Part shown: positions 6,788 to 13,275 of the stretch, in pieces | Layout of the letters: each line of letters starts with the position of its first letter | Position numbering within the stretch: position 1 is the stretch's first letter | Assembly: GCA_018657845.1 (NCBI GenBank) | Contig: JABHWJ010000017.1 | Location: forward strand, 1 to 45,493 | DNA from: Candidatus Woesearchaeota archaeon | GTDB lineage: Archaea; Nanobdellota; Nanobdellia; Woesearchaeales; GW2011-AR9 | Reading direction: 5' to 3' | DNA length: 45,493 bases | Position numbers and translations under genes: made by a program | Notes under the pieces: model-generated | The model's input: the letters and a program-made list of their open reading frames with translations, nothing else | Told to the model about the DNA's origin: nothing | Database searches by the model: none

Positions 6788-9700
6788 ATGTCTATGAGAT
6801 TTCCATTATTTAATCCTCAAGAAATTGAACCCAAGATTCTTAGATACTGGAACAATGAAAAGATCATTGAACAAACAAGAGAAAGAAACAAAAAAGGAAA
6901 AAAATTCTATTTCCTTGACGGTCCACCTTATACTTCTGGAAGACTTCACTTAGGTCACGCTTGGAACTATGCCCTAAAAGATACTATCATTCGTTATAAA
7001 AGAATGACTGGACACAACGTCTGGGATAGAAATGGTTTTGATATGCATGGTCTTCCAACTGCTCACAAAGTTATGGCCAAACATAAGTTAGAAACTAAAG
7101 AAGACATTATTAAATTTGGTTTAGCTAAGTTCATTCAAGAATGTATTGACTTCTCTAAAGAAATGGCCGACCTTATGGTTAAAGATCTCCAACGGATGGG
7201 GATATCCTTAAAATTAGATGATCCCTATATGCCCATCACTCCAGAATTTATCGAAGGAGAATGGCAGTTTTTCAAAAAAGCAGACCAACAAAAAAGATTA
7301 TACTATGGGGAAAAAGTTCTCACTTGGTGTTCTTCTTGTGAAACTGCTTTAGCAAAACACGAATGTGAATATCAAACTGTAAATGACAATTCTATCTTTG
7401 TAAAATTTCCAGTCAAAGGAAAAAAGAACGAGTTCCTCATTATTTGGACCACCACTCCTTGGACAATTCCTTTTAATCTTGCTGTAATGGTTAATCCTAC
7501 AATTGATTATGTAAGAGCCAAAGTTGAAGGAGAAACTTGGATTGTTGCTAAAGTTTTAGCTGGACCTGTAATTCAAGCAGTAGCCGATAAGAAATACAAA
7601 ATTATCGAAGAATTCAAAGGAAAAAAATTAGAAGGATTAGAATACACCCATCCCTGGGAAGATGAAATCTCCCAACACAAAGAAATCAAAAAAGAAGCAC
7701 CTAACGCTCATACTGTAATTCTTACAGAACAATATGCTGATACTTCTGCAGGATCAGGTTTAGTTCATTCTGCTCCAGGTTGCGGACCAGAAGATCAAGA
7801 AGCTTGTAAACCATATAAAATTCCTCCATTCAACAATCTCAATGAAAAGGGAATCTTCCCTAACAATATGGGTAAGTTCTCAGGACTAACTGCAAAGAAA
7901 GATGATAAGAAATTTATCACTGCCCTCGAAGAGGCTAACGCTTTAATCGCAACAACTCAAGTTGAGCATGAATATCCTCATTGCTGGAGATGCAAACATC
8001 CAGTAATTTTTAGAATAACTTATCAATGGTTCCTTAAGATTGAAGATATCAAAGAAAAGATGCTTCTTGATAATGCCAAAACTAAGTGGGTGCCAGAAAC
8101 CGCCAATAATTCCTTTAAATCTTGGGTCTCTAACTTAAGAGATAATTCTGTTTCCAGACAAAGATTCTGGGGAACTCCATTACCAATTTGGAAATGTGAA
8201 AAATGTGAGAAATACGATGTCCTCGGATCAAGAGAGGAAATAAAAAAACTAGCCGGCACAGTGCCTAAAAATCTCCACATGCCTTGGATTGATGAAGTGA
8301 AATATGATTGTAAGTGCGGCGGAACTAAATCTCGTGTCTCAGATGTTATTGATGTTTGGGTAGATGCTGGAACAACCGCTTGGAATTGTTTAAGAAATGA
8401 TCCCAAATTAATCAAAGAGTGGTTCCCTGCAGATTTAATTCTTGAAGCAAAAGAACAAACCAGACTTTGGTTTAGTATGCTTTCTATTTGTTCACAAATT
8501 ATGTATGGAAAAAATTGTTATAACAACGTTTACGTTTATGGGATGTTAACTGACATCAAAGGAGTTAAGATGTCTAAATCTCTTGGAAATATCATCTCTC
8601 CTTATGAATTAATTGATAAGCATGGTGTAGATACTTTAAGATATTACATGTGTCAAAATAATGCTGGACAAGACATTAACTTTAGTTGGGATGAATGTGC
8701 GCTTAAACAAAGATACCTTAACATTCTATGGAACACTCATAAATTCCTAATCAATTTAGCCAATGAAAACAAAGTCAACCCCTTCAAATTAGATGCCCAA
8801 TTAATGGAAGACGTTCTTGACACTGAAGAGAAATACATCTTTTCTAGATTACACCATACTATCAAAGAAGTAAAAGAACACTTTGAAGCTTATCAATTAG
8901 ATGAAACCTTAGTCCCTATAGAAAATCTATTTCTAGATTTAAGTAGAACTTACATCCAAATGATTAGGGATAAAGCTTCTAGTGGAGAAAAAATTGACAA
9001 AGAGGTTTGCATATATACTATTACTCAAGTGTTGATGGAAACTCTGAAGATTTTTGCTCCTTTGGCCCCTTTTGTTACTGAAGCAATTTACCTCAACTTA
9101 AAGGAAGAATTCAAACTAAAAGAAAAATCTATTCACCATCACGCTTTCCCTGAAGCCAACAAGAAAAGAATTAATGTAAAGCTAGAAGAAAAGATTGATG
9201 TTGCTAATCAAATTATTCAATCTGTTCTCAATCTAAGAGAAAAATTGGGTTATGGGGTAAGATGGCCCCTTCGAGAGATTGTAGTAACCAGCGATGATAA
9301 AACAATCCTCAAAGCAGTAGAAGAACTTAGAGATATTATTAAGAAACAAACCAATCTTAAAGATATCTCTGTAATGGAATCTCTTCCAGGAGTGGAAACC
9401 ACAGTCAAACCAGATTTCAAGAAACTGGCTCCAATTTACAAAGAATTAACCACACAAATCATTACCAAGTTATCTATGGATTCTCCTCAGACAATCTTAG
9501 GCCACCTAGAAAAAAGCAATAGTTATGATTTCAAGGTAAGTAATAAGAAAGTTTCCATTACCAAAGAACATGTAATTATTGAAAACAAAGTTCCCGAAAA
9601 ATATCTAGAAGGTTCTTTCAGAAAAGGATTTGTTTACTTAACCAAAGCTTTAACTTCAGAATTAGAAGGTGAAGGTTTCTCCAGAGAAATTATTAGAAAT

Positions 9701-9934
9701 GTTCAACAGTTAAGAAAAGAAGCGGGTTTACAGAAACTCGACCGGATAATTCTTTACATAAAATTAGATGAAGATCTTTTAGAGAAAGTAAAAAAACACC
9801 AGAATGAAATTAAAGAAAAAGTAGGTGCAGATAAATTTGAGTTATCTGCAGTCCCTCCAGTAAAAAAACATCCCCATCACAGTAAGAAAAAAATCAAGAA
9901 AGAAGAGATTGAAGTCTGGCTAGATAAAATTTAG
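6788..9934 (+). CDS. ileS: Isoleucyl-tRNA synthetase
   Basis: 1048 aa; class I HLGH motif, NGFDMHGLPTAHKV, KMSKSLGN, Zn-binding CxxC pairs. Confidence 0.96.
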   Translation: MSMRFPLFNPQEIEPKILRYWNNEKIIEQTRERNKKGKKFYFLDGPPYTSGRLHLGHAWNYALKDTIIRYKRMTGHNVWDRNGFDMHGLPTAHKVMAKHKLETKEDIIKFGLAKFIQECIDFSKEMADLMVKDLQRMGISLKLDDPYMPITPEFIEGEWQFFKKADQQKRLYYGEKVLTWCSSCETALAKHECEYQTVNDNSIFVKFPVKGKKNEFLIIWTTTPWTIPFNLAVMVNPTIDYVRAKVEGETWIVAKVLAGPVIQAVADKKYKIIEEFKGKKLEGLEYTHPWEDEISQHKEIKKEAPNAHTVILTEQYADTSAGSGLVHSAPGCGPEDQEACKPYKIPPFNNLNEKGIFPNNMGKFSGLTAKKDDKKFITALEEANALIATTQVEHEYPHCWRCKHPVIFRITYQWFLKIEDIKEKMLLDNAKTKWVPETANNSFKSWVSNLRDNSVSRQRFWGTPLPIWKCEKCEKYDVLGSREEIKKLAGTVPKNLHMPWIDEVKYDCKCGGTKSRVSDVIDVWVDAGTTAWNCLRNDPKLIKEWFPADLILEAKEQTRLWFSMLSICSQIMYGKNCYNNVYVYGMLTDIKGVKMSKSLGNIISPYELIDKHGVDTLRYYMCQNNAGQDINFSWDECALKQRYLNILWNTHKFLINLANENKVNPFKLDAQLMEDVLDTEEKYIFSRLHHTIKEVKEHFEAYQLDETLVPIENLFLDLSRTYIQMIRDKASSGEKIDKEVCIYTITQVLMETLKIFAPLAPFVTEAIYLNLKEEFKLKEKSIHHHAFPEANKKRINVKLEEKIDVANQIIQSVLNLREKLGYGVRWPLREIVVTSDDKTILKAVEELRDIIKKQTNLKDISVMESLPGVETTVKPDFKKLAPIYKELTTQIITKLSMDSPQTILGHLEKSNSYDFKVSNKKVSITKEHVIIENKVPEKYLEGSFRKGFVYLTKALTSELEGEGFSREIIRNVQQLRKEAGLQKLDRIILYIKLDEDLLEKVKKHQNEIKEKVGADKFELSAVPPVKKHPHHSKKKIKKEEIEVWLDKI

Positions 9935-11068: not shown

Positions 11069-11078
11069 TTTTAAATAA
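11069..11078 (+). promoter_or_regulatory. TATA box for Thr-rich leader ORF / thrS operon
   Basis: CTTTTAAATAA; centre of TTTAAATA at 11073.5, 26.5 nt before ATG 11100, same spacing as the 10510 gene. Confidence 0.65.
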
Positions 11079-11099: not shown

Positions 11100-11159
11100 A
11101 TGGCTCTTACCAAACAAAGTGTTGGTACCACAACAACTACAACAGTTACAACAGCGTAA
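11100..11159 (+). CDS. Candidate Thr-rich leader peptide MALTKQSVGTTTTTTVTTA (not in ORF track)
   Basis: 19 codons, 9 of them Thr, ATG at leaderless position; upstream of thrS. Confidence 0.6.
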   Translation: MALTKQSVGTTTTTTVTTA

Positions 11160-11207
11160 GCTGTCTGGTTGTTCAGGGCTATTTCTTCTCAAAATTGGTT
11201 CTGAACA
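11149..11207 (+). promoter_or_regulatory. Leader hairpins downstream of Thr codons
   Basis: ACAGC-GTAA-GCTGT (11151-11164) spans the stop codon; TGTTCAGGGCTATTT (11170-11184) pairs with AAATTGGTTCTGAACA (11192-11207), about 15 pairs including G-U and one bulge. Confidence 0.5.
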
Positions 11208-11266
11208 GAGAGATAGATTATAAGATAAATGATAAAAATACCAAAATCAATTTAAAGAAAGAAAAA

Positions 11267-11563
11267 ATGACTATTAAAATGGAAAAGCTTTGGTTCATGA
11301 AAATAAAAGACAAAATAGAAATTAGTGACAATCGTTTTTGTCCACCTCATCATTTGCCCCACAAATTACCTTGGGGTGAAAAAGTGACTACAGAACATTG
11401 TCACATTCATAACACCCGGTGGAGAATGTTACATCACTCTCCTTTTTGTCGTTATTTAAAGTGTCCCAATTATCCATTTATGATAAAAAAATATAAAGAA
11501 TTCAAACAGAGAGGTTCACCAGAACGAGTTTCAGGTGCTTCTCGTTTACTCGGAGGTAAATAA
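11267..11563 (+). CDS. Small Cys/His-rich, probably Zn-binding protein
   Basis: CPPHHLPHKLPWGEKVTTEHCHIHNTRWRMLHHSPFCRYLKCPNY; ATG 11267 preferred over the TTG of the track; ends 2 nt before thrS. Confidence 0.65.
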   Translation: MTIKMEKLWFMKIKDKIEISDNRFCPPHHLPHKLPWGEKVTTEHCHIHNTRWRMLHHSPFCRYLKCPNYPFMIKKYKEFKQRGSPERVSGASRLLGGK

Positions 11564-11565
11564 AA

Positions 11566-13275
11566 ATGAAAATACTCGCAATCCATGCAGACTTTATTGA
11601 ATTTGAGGCTAAAAAGAAAGCCTTCAAGGCAGCTCCAGAAGCTGACAAAGAAAGAAAAAGAGTAGAAGAATGCTTAGTCATTTTTTCAGCAGTAGAAAGT
11701 AGGGATGAAAGCAATCTTAAAGAAGTAATTAAAAAATATGTAGAACAAATTAAAGACATTGCTAAACAAGTCAACACCCAAACTGTTGTCCTTTATCCCT
11801 ATGCTCATCTTTCTTCTGCATTATCAAATCCTAAGGCCGCAGAAGAAGTCTTACAAGAAGCCGAAAAGATTCTCAAGAAAGAAAAGTTCAATGTAACTAG
11901 GGCACCGTTTGGTTGGTATAAATCATTTAACATTAGTTGTAAGGGCCATCCATTATCAGAACTCTCTAGAGAGTTTTCTGCAGAAGGAGGAACCATAGAC
12001 AAAGAACTCTCCGAAGATGAAATTAAAAATCTCTTACAACAAATTTCTAGATCAAGATTAGATACTTCTAAACTAAAAGAAAATGATCACCGAATCCTCG
12101 GAAAAGATCTTGACCTCTGGAGCTTCAACGAAGTAGCACCAGGAATGGTCTTCTGGCACAACAAAGGATTAATCATTAAAAATCTATTAACTGATTATTG
12201 GAGGGAAGTTCATAGAAGAAATGGTTACGAAGAAATTTCTACTCCCCAAATCATGGATAAGAAACTCTGGCTCTTATCTGGTCATTGGAATAAGTTTAAA
12301 GAAAACATGTTTATTACCAAATATGAAAAAAGAGACTTCGCTGTAAAACCAATGAATTGTCCAGGAGGGATGTTAGTTTACAAGGCCTCATCCAAATCTT
12401 ACAAAGACCTTCCTTTAAGGACCGGAGAATTAGGTTTAGTACACAGACAAGAACTTTCTGGAACTTTAGCCGGACTATTCCGAGTAATCCAATTCACTCA
12501 AGATGATGCCCATATTTTCTGTACTGAAAAACAACTTGAGCAAGAAGTAGGATACATCATTGATATCATCAAAGAAATGTTTGCTACTTTTAATTTAGAT
12601 TTCCATCACATTGAGCTATCTACTCGTCCAAAGAAAAGAATTGGTAGTGACAAAGTTTGGGACTTCACTGAGAAATCTTTAGAGAATGTTCTCAAGAAAA
12701 AGAAAATAAATTTTAAAGTCAACAAAGGAGATGGTGCTTTCTACGGACCTAAGATTGACTTCCACTTAAAGGATTCTTTAGATCGAACTTGGCAATGTTC
12801 AACTATTCAGCTAGACATGTCTCTTCCAGAGAGATTTGATTTAACTTACGCAGATAGTGATGGTAAGGAAAAAAGACCTGTAATTTTACACAGAGTGATC
12901 TATGGGGCAGTTGAAAGATTCATTGGAATTGTAACTGAACACTTAAATGGAAGATTTCCGCTTTGGTTAAATCCCACCCAAGTAAAGCTTATCACAGTTA
13001 GTGAAAAGAATACTAAGTTTGCTGAAGAAGTTCTTTCCAAAATGAAGACAGTTGGACTAAGAGCAGAATTAGATGACCGTGCAGAATCTATTGGTAAGAA
13101 AGTCAGAGATGGTCAATTACAGAAAGCAAACTACATCGTAACTATTGGCGATAAAGAAGTAGAAAAGAAAACTCTGGCCGTTAGAGACCGATCTGGAAAA
13201 ACCAAATTTGGAGTAAACATAGAAGAATTCATTTCCCAACTCCAAGAAGAGATCGAAAAGAAGGAATTGAAATAA
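11566..13275 (+). CDS. thrS: Threonyl-tRNA synthetase, archaeal type
   Basis: 569 aa; archaeal N-terminal editing-like domain (MKILAIHADFIEFEAKKK), class II motifs (PMNCPGGMLVYK, HRQELSGTLAGLFRVIQFTQDDAHIFC). Confidence 0.95.
   Translation: MKILAIHADFIEFEAKKKAFKAAPEADKERKRVEECLVIFSAVESRDESNLKEVIKKYVEQIKDIAKQVNTQTVVLYPYAHLSSALSNPKAAEEVLQEAEKILKKEKFNVTRAPFGWYKSFNISCKGHPLSELSREFSAEGGTIDKELSEDEIKNLLQQISRSRLDTSKLKENDHRILGKDLDLWSFNEVAPGMVFWHNKGLIIKNLLTDYWREVHRRNGYEEISTPQIMDKKLWLLSGHWNKFKENMFITKYEKRDFAVKPMNCPGGMLVYKASSKSYKDLPLRTGELGLVHRQELSGTLAGLFRVIQFTQDDAHIFCTEKQLEQEVGYIIDIIKEMFATFNLDFHHIELSTRPKKRIGSDKVWDFTEKSLENVLKKKKINFKVNKGDGAFYGPKIDFHLKDSLDRTWQCSTIQLDMSLPERFDLTYADSDGKEKRPVILHRVIYGAVERFIGIVTEHLNGRFPLWLNPTQVKLITVSEKNTKFAEEVLSKMKTVGLRAELDDRAESIGKKVRDGQLQKANYIVTIGDKEVEKKTLAVRDRSGKTKFGVNIEEFISQLQEEIEKKELK

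Follow-up and report, generated by a model that had tools for sequence, protein, structure and literature searches.

Short open reading frames (ORFs) rich in the codons of a single amino acid precede aminoacyl-tRNA synthetase genes for that same amino acid in genomes of Woesearchaeota. These ORFs are very probably cis-acting leader peptides that sense the cognate charged tRNA, a judgement that does not extend to the output step. The starting case is a threonine (Thr) leader upstream of thrS, the gene for threonyl-tRNA synthetase (ThrRS), in a stretch of 45,493 nucleotides referred to here as the window. The window's contig also carries an archaeal 16S rRNA (SSU_rRNA_archaea match). Judged from sequence, leuS, valS and ileS of related genomes rely on the same principle with other codons, as asnA and cysK probably do.

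An earlier note on this DNA had proposed a Thr-specific leader peptide as a candidate control of archaeal thrS. The proposal is now strongly supported by recurrence of the putative leader across families, by the spacing of its TATA box and, above all, by the switch of the codon run to Leu, Val or Ile before leuS, valS or ileS. The features of the region are the following.

11070–11077, + strand: perfect TATA box TTTAAATA, leader promoter P1, read from the sequence; its end lies 22 nt before the leader ATG
11100–11159, + strand: Thr leader ORF MALTKQSVGTTTTTTVTTA plus TAA, based on translation, recurrence and shuffle test; its mRNA start is probably leaderless
11132–11173, + strand: predicted pairing of Thr codons 11132–11139 with UGGUUGUU at 11166–11173 when no ribosome is present (minimum free energy fold, pair sums)
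11151–11164, + strand: stop-codon hairpin ACAGC-GTAA-GCTGT, arms 11151–11155 and 11160–11164; found in the same place in relatives with both arms changed
11161–11216, + strand: post-stop hairpin, mutually exclusive with the Thr-codon pairing and predicted to form when a ribosome is on the Thr codons
11217–11224, + strand: ATTATAAG, possible second (internal) promoter P2, a candidate from sequence
11267–11563, + strand: Cys/His-rich small protein of 98 codons from ATG 11267, the first gene after the leader
11566–13275, + strand: thrS, archaeal-type ThrRS with editing domain (TIGR00418 588 bits, PF08915, PF00587, PF03129)

Translation gives the ORF that the earlier note had read: 19 codons from ATG 11100 to a TAA stop at 11157–11159, with Thr at 9 of 19 positions. 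The 26.5 nt reported there between box and ATG is the distance from the centre of the box. The Cys/His protein–thrS unit after the leader is also as described, and its first member has no Pfam or NCBIfam match. Elsewhere the slot between leader and thrS is occupied by a different small gene; L007 and L071, for example, have one for a YHGG-containing protein there.

ThrRS was located in 327 of the 362 genomes of the order, most of them metagenome-assembled. Upstream regions of 600 nt were read for 148 loci, which are the best-matching ThrRS places and not a random sample. A Thr-rich short ORF at a set distance from a TATA box was found upstream of thrS at 22 of the 148 loci, namely the window and 21 other genomes of the order, spread over seven families (f1, f5, f10, f34, f39, f40 and f63). 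Both the archaeal editing-domain type of ThrRS and the TGS type are preceded by such leaders. Further examples are MLYDQLIVLKKYLSYLVATTTTTA, MVVNNIFETQVLTTTTTTA, MIIDFFETVVGFFILLTSSDTTTTTC and MENLILLSENKILSSALTTSTTTTTA, and MISDFFENIVDFVILLTTVTTTTTTS in JAFGRO010000017.1 of Candidatus Woesearchaeota archaeon Zod_Metabat.833. The layout is constant: usually 18–31 codons, with the Thr run terminal and followed by one more codon (mostly Ala, Cys or Ser) and the stop.

Repetitive short ORFs arise easily in AT-rich genomes, which makes chance or low-complexity sequence an explanation to be considered. The shuffle test speaks against it. At least six Thr within eight codons occur in 15 of the 148 upstream regions (600 nt each), the mean for dinucleotide shuffles being 0.0, and the same test on the same regions gave no comparable excess for any of the other nineteen amino acids. 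A search by DNA similarity with the leader region returned low-complexity matches only. A strict DNA pattern (Thr run, hairpin and CATTG) had zero matches in 382 genomes; the pattern was too rigid.

The element is patchy. No leader was found within 600 nt upstream at 126 of the 148 thrS loci, among them the one whose thrS is closest to that of the window, at 79% identity. The earlier note had named syntenic relatives that lack the element as grounds for refutation; some relatives, the closest included, are of this kind, so the element is not universal. In other orders of the class, about 28 usable loci contained no Thr leader. The bacterial and other archaeal thrS loci that were fetched also lacked one, except for one Woesearchaeota record.

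A sensor of this kind predicts matching leaders before other synthetase genes, each rich in the amino acid that its enzyme handles. Class I and class II synthetases were therefore read from eight leader-bearing genomes, and ValRS, LeuRS and IleRS then from 30–40 more. The Thr set is the discovery set; the Leu, Val and Ile sets are an independent test. LeuRS genes were found behind the Leu-rich leaders MNNLGLALLLLL, MIKGQLLLVLLL, MKTTILLLLL, MIKYKILVLLL, MILSQLKLLL, MKLNGLDLLLLLVL and others. ValRS genes follow the Val-rich leaders MICVVVVVA, MYLVSGIFSVVVA, MYSIWKTLSVVVAN, MYSLYQTLIVIVVS and MNRLLKVYMVLVV, and IleRS genes follow the Ile-rich leaders MFSDNIVVSIIII, MRQKNIAKVSIIIIS, MSIVARTIISAIIIIIII, MNQNATGIISIIII and others.

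A strict rule was applied, requiring an ATG, a perfect TATA box at 20–27 nt, a length of 7–45 codons and at least four of one residue in the last nine. The resulting gene-by-residue table, which counts loci, contains 17 thrS loci with a Thr ORF, 9 leuS with Leu, 8 ileS with Ile, 2 valS with Val and 1 asnA with Asn. Its sole off-diagonal cell is one thrS locus with an Ile ORF. There are 38 cognate ORFs by this rule, compared with at most 23 in 20,000 permutations of the labels. Three further ValRS leaders appear at a looser cut. With this diagonal and the amino-acid specificity of the shuffle test, the chance explanation is refuted at the level of sequence and is left with a negligible probability.

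The diagonal also bears on a Thr-rich functional micropeptide acting in trans. Such a peptide would account for a short ORF kept in place, yet no peptide sequence is shared outside the codon run, and the residue becomes Leu, Val or Ile according to the neighbouring gene. A role in trans is accordingly very unlikely.

One near-whole genome (G153, 1.51 Mb) contains 107 short ORFs behind a perfect TATA box. Five of them have a TCA[T/G]TG-like motif after the ORF, and four of these five precede thrS, leuS, valS and asnA as their Thr, Leu, Val and Asn leaders. An unbiased screen of the short ORFs with such boxes in this genome picked up its leaders for Thr, Ile, Leu and Val again, and it also brought out an Asn-rich ORF before asnA, MSYHIRYKTLVFCFVNSNSNNC. 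Among about 30 asnA loci, an Asn-rich leader is clear in one genome and weak in another, and asnA leaders are only suggestive on these sequences. The screen further yielded one case of a Cys-rich ORF, MSKPICCCCWNSSLA (C19 position 113335, minus strand; L377:13335), which has a perfect TATA box and lies 68 nt upstream of a cysK-like gene. Cognate leaders were absent from the few loci read for the Ser, Pro, Gly and Met synthetases in the eight leader-bearing genomes.

The window's own ileS (6788–9934; L193) has no Ile-rich leader, just a TATA-like box before its start. Two successive short ORFs, the Ile-rich MSIHNTIITPILII and then the Leu/Ile-rich MAIKKQDEKIRISCHSPLLMLLILLIIILI, occur in G153 (C11 position 38920, minus strand; L360:18920). 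A hairpin-like stretch follows each of them, and the downstream gene run includes several small multi-pass membrane proteins with no assigned function. These ORFs may be leaders of a non-synthetase operon.

The position of the promoter is as regular as the codon run. Of 49 leaders, 41 have a perfect TTTAWAWA box whose end lies 20–25 nt upstream of the ATG, with 22 or 23 nt the commonest distance. Archaeal transcription starts about 22–27 nt downstream of the TATA box. Taken together, the two distances would place the 5' end of the mRNA on or beside the leader ATG, and the leader mRNAs are thus probably leaderless.

A second promoter may exist at about a quarter of the loci. The earlier note had pointed to ATTATAAG near 11217 as a promoter that could bypass the leader. 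The box is present, and a bypass of this kind is possible in some loci: a perfect box lies 20–38 nt before the main gene at 12 of 45 leader loci, where 1.7 would be expected, which suggests that some have a P2. This raises the alternative that the leader is a separate short transcript ending in a U-rich stretch and that thrS is expressed from its own P2, the leader acting by transcriptional interference or having no role. Together with ATTATAAG in the window, the excess of second boxes favours such an arrangement, but 33 of the 45 leader loci are without one. A GGTGA-type ribosome-binding site, which a leadered mRNA should have, is found at many of the main genes downstream of leaders, and an inert leader would leave the choice of cognate codons unexplained. 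Separate transcription is improbable.

The stop codon of Thr, Val and Leu leaders often lies inside a short hairpin whose two arms change together. Arm pairs seen include ACCTGC/GCAGGT, ACCTCT/AGAGGT, ACAGCT/AGCTGT, CAGCC/GGCTG, GTGGC/GCCAC and TGCTC/GAGCA. The GTAA-loop hairpin described earlier over the window's stop codon is present (ACAGC 11151–11155, GCTGT 11160–11164); taken alone it is not significant (p=0.08). Covariation was assessed by comparing each arm with its own and with swapped partners, in place of MAFFT plus RNAalifold. The latter gave no pairs because the 3' arm was wrongly placed in the MAFFT alignment. Swapping the downstream arms among leaders shortens the stem (p<=5e-5 for Thr, p<=0.001 for Val/Leu/Asn). 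The covariation check suggested with the original proposal thus shows the stop-codon hairpin and the last codons of the ORF changing in step.

A second element follows the stop. A UUCAUUG-like motif is common to the Thr, Val and Leu leaders, and TCA[T/G]TG starting 2–9 nt after the stop is found in 21 of 49 leaders, where about 1.4 would be expected. The region 10–30 nt after the stop is U-rich in composition in the same three groups.

The Ile leaders have neither the stop-codon hairpin nor the UUCAUUG motif. In their place, a hairpin follows the stop, and a further segment is complementary to the run of Ile codons. This pairing between codon run and downstream segment is stronger than in shuffles; the swap test gave no significant difference (p=0.2), so that conservation and covariation are inseparable for the Ile leaders. 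Five IleRS leaders (L436, L441, L450, L452 and L191) share a conserved UUCUAU(C/U)AU within the Ile codons (Ser-Ile-Ile), and a complementary AUGAUAGA-like copy is found downstream of their stop.

The post-stop hairpin of the window (11161–11216) had been put at roughly 15 pairs. It is present and larger than that, with 21 pairs and -22.3 kcal/mol (z=-4.0); none of 200 shuffles reached this stability. In the predicted fold, blocking a ribosome onto the Thr run lowers the pairing between the Thr codons and UGGUUGUU from 8 expected pairs to about 1 and raises the post-stop hairpin from 0.7 to 14–18 pairs. Such a switch follows the logic of bacterial attenuators. Across the 49 leaders it is no stronger than in shuffles, and for this reason it is not claimed as a general device. 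The attenuation mechanism suggested in the earlier note is therefore partly supported, by the co-varying stop hairpin and the predicted fold switch of the window, and not as a switch that holds across leaders.

A mechanism can be proposed from these elements. Transcription from the TATA box at 11070 would begin at or next to the leader ATG, as the spacing implies, and a ribosome would load at once. When Thr-tRNA is plentiful, the ribosome would pass the Thr codons and terminate at the stop codon. When it is scarce, the ribosome would stall within the Thr run, shortly before reaching the stop. The stalled ribosome would leave the stop-codon hairpin and the post-stop segment free and would itself be kept on the transcript. 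The choice between stall and termination would then decide the expression of the Cys/His protein and thrS. A ribosome on the stop codon would have UUCAUUG at its leading edge, and a stall a few codons earlier would expose the motif.

The output of this choice is most likely transcriptional, acting through aCPSF1/FttA termination, a reading given about an even chance. Departure of the ribosome would expose the U-rich leader RNA to aCPSF1/FttA, and a stalled ribosome or an alternative fold would prevent this. Archaeal RNA polymerase terminates at U-rich sites with aCPSF1/FttA and does not strictly need a hairpin (PMC7515710), and according to one proposal aCPSF1/FttA is kept out when a ribosome occupies the transcript (PMC8116511). 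The hairpin plus U-run of an intrinsic terminator was not found, U5 and pyrimidine runs being near expectation with a weak excess if any. The earlier note had cautioned that no clear U-tract follows the hairpin; over all leaders, U-runs exceed composition weakly if at all.

A variant output step is translational attenuation, in which the stalled ribosome frees or blocks the downstream ribosome-binding site, or reinitiation occurs from the leader stop. The leader stop lies only about 28–104 nt before most main genes, the stop-codon hairpin is conserved and start regions are partly paired in several leaders, all of which would suit it. Accessibility of the start site, though, shows no consistent change among the stalled, terminating and free states of the ribosome, and sequestration of the ribosome-binding site was tested and is not supported. 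A translational output is the main alternative, with a probability of somewhat under one third, and transcriptional output through aCPSF1/FttA is preferred.

Leader peptides of this general kind are known from bacteria. The attenuators thrL, leuL, ilvL, trpL and hisL, and pheM before pheST, are ribosome-mediated and use leader peptides. They resemble the woesearchaeotal elements in having a short ORF of cognate codons just ahead of a synthesis or charging gene, with alternative folds possible. The woesearchaeotal elements differ in their archaeal promoter, in a probably leaderless leader mRNA and in having no canonical terminator. Their codon run touches the stop codon, the stop lies in a small hairpin, a UUCAUUG-type motif is present, and the targets are mainly the Thr, Leu, Val and Ile synthetases. 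Some actinobacterial attenuators with cognate-codon leader peptides (e.g. C. glutamicum ilvBNC) are leaderless as well; unlike the Woesearchaeota leaders, they have bacterial terminator hairpins and belong to another domain of life with other termination machinery. The leaders appear to work like bacterial leader-peptide control and are candidate members of that class.

Control of thrS from the 5' region is also found in E. coli, where ThrRS binds a tRNA-like RNA operator that has no leader ORF. Autoregulation of this type, with the ORF incidental, would fit the structured 5' region seen here. It would leave unexplained the ORF of cognate codons, the TATA-to-ATG spacing and the leaders before LeuRS, ValRS and IleRS genes, and no Rfam family matches; it is highly improbable. 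T-box riboswitches sense uncharged tRNA before synthetase genes by direct tRNA binding and without an ORF, whereas a leader ORF is present here. Searches for Rfam T-box and amino-acid leader families gave no match at gathering score in the window or at the leader loci, with a chance hit of E=2 only.

Full-text literature searches, with coverage mostly outside subscription journals, returned nothing relevant on archaeal leader-peptide attenuation. This agrees with the earlier note, to which no described leader-peptide control of an archaeal aminoacyl-tRNA synthetase was known. A 2021 study described promoter recruitment as the only known target of archaeal transcription regulation (PMC8448881). 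The fullest reading of the present data is a multi-gene system in Woesearchaeota in which ribosomes sense individual amino acids (at least Thr, Leu, Val and Ile; probably Asn and Cys). It would combine leaderless leader peptides with archaeal factor-dependent termination to control genes for synthetases and for biosynthesis, use the shared stop hairpin and UUCAUUG as its read-out, and represent the first archaeal translation-coupled attenuation. This full reading is tentative and is given slightly less than an even chance.

Leader-peptide control is a textbook bacterial mechanism. If the present interpretation of a family of cognate leaders is correct, sensing of charged tRNA by a translating ribosome regulates archaeal genes, which implies functional coupling of transcription and translation in DPANN archaea. 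It would also account for the way in which archaea that depend on a host, and whose biosynthetic genes are few, match their synthetases to amino-acid supply. Codon swaps would then be a ready handle on archaeal termination and coupling.

A separate observation concerns the ThrRS proteins themselves. In many relatives, among them G009, G011, G024 and other genomes of the same family, the ThrRS ORFs are about 640–944 aa long, and the N-terminal editing domain shows 56–72% identity, against only 29–55% for the catalytic domain. This difference suggests domain exchange in ThrRS.
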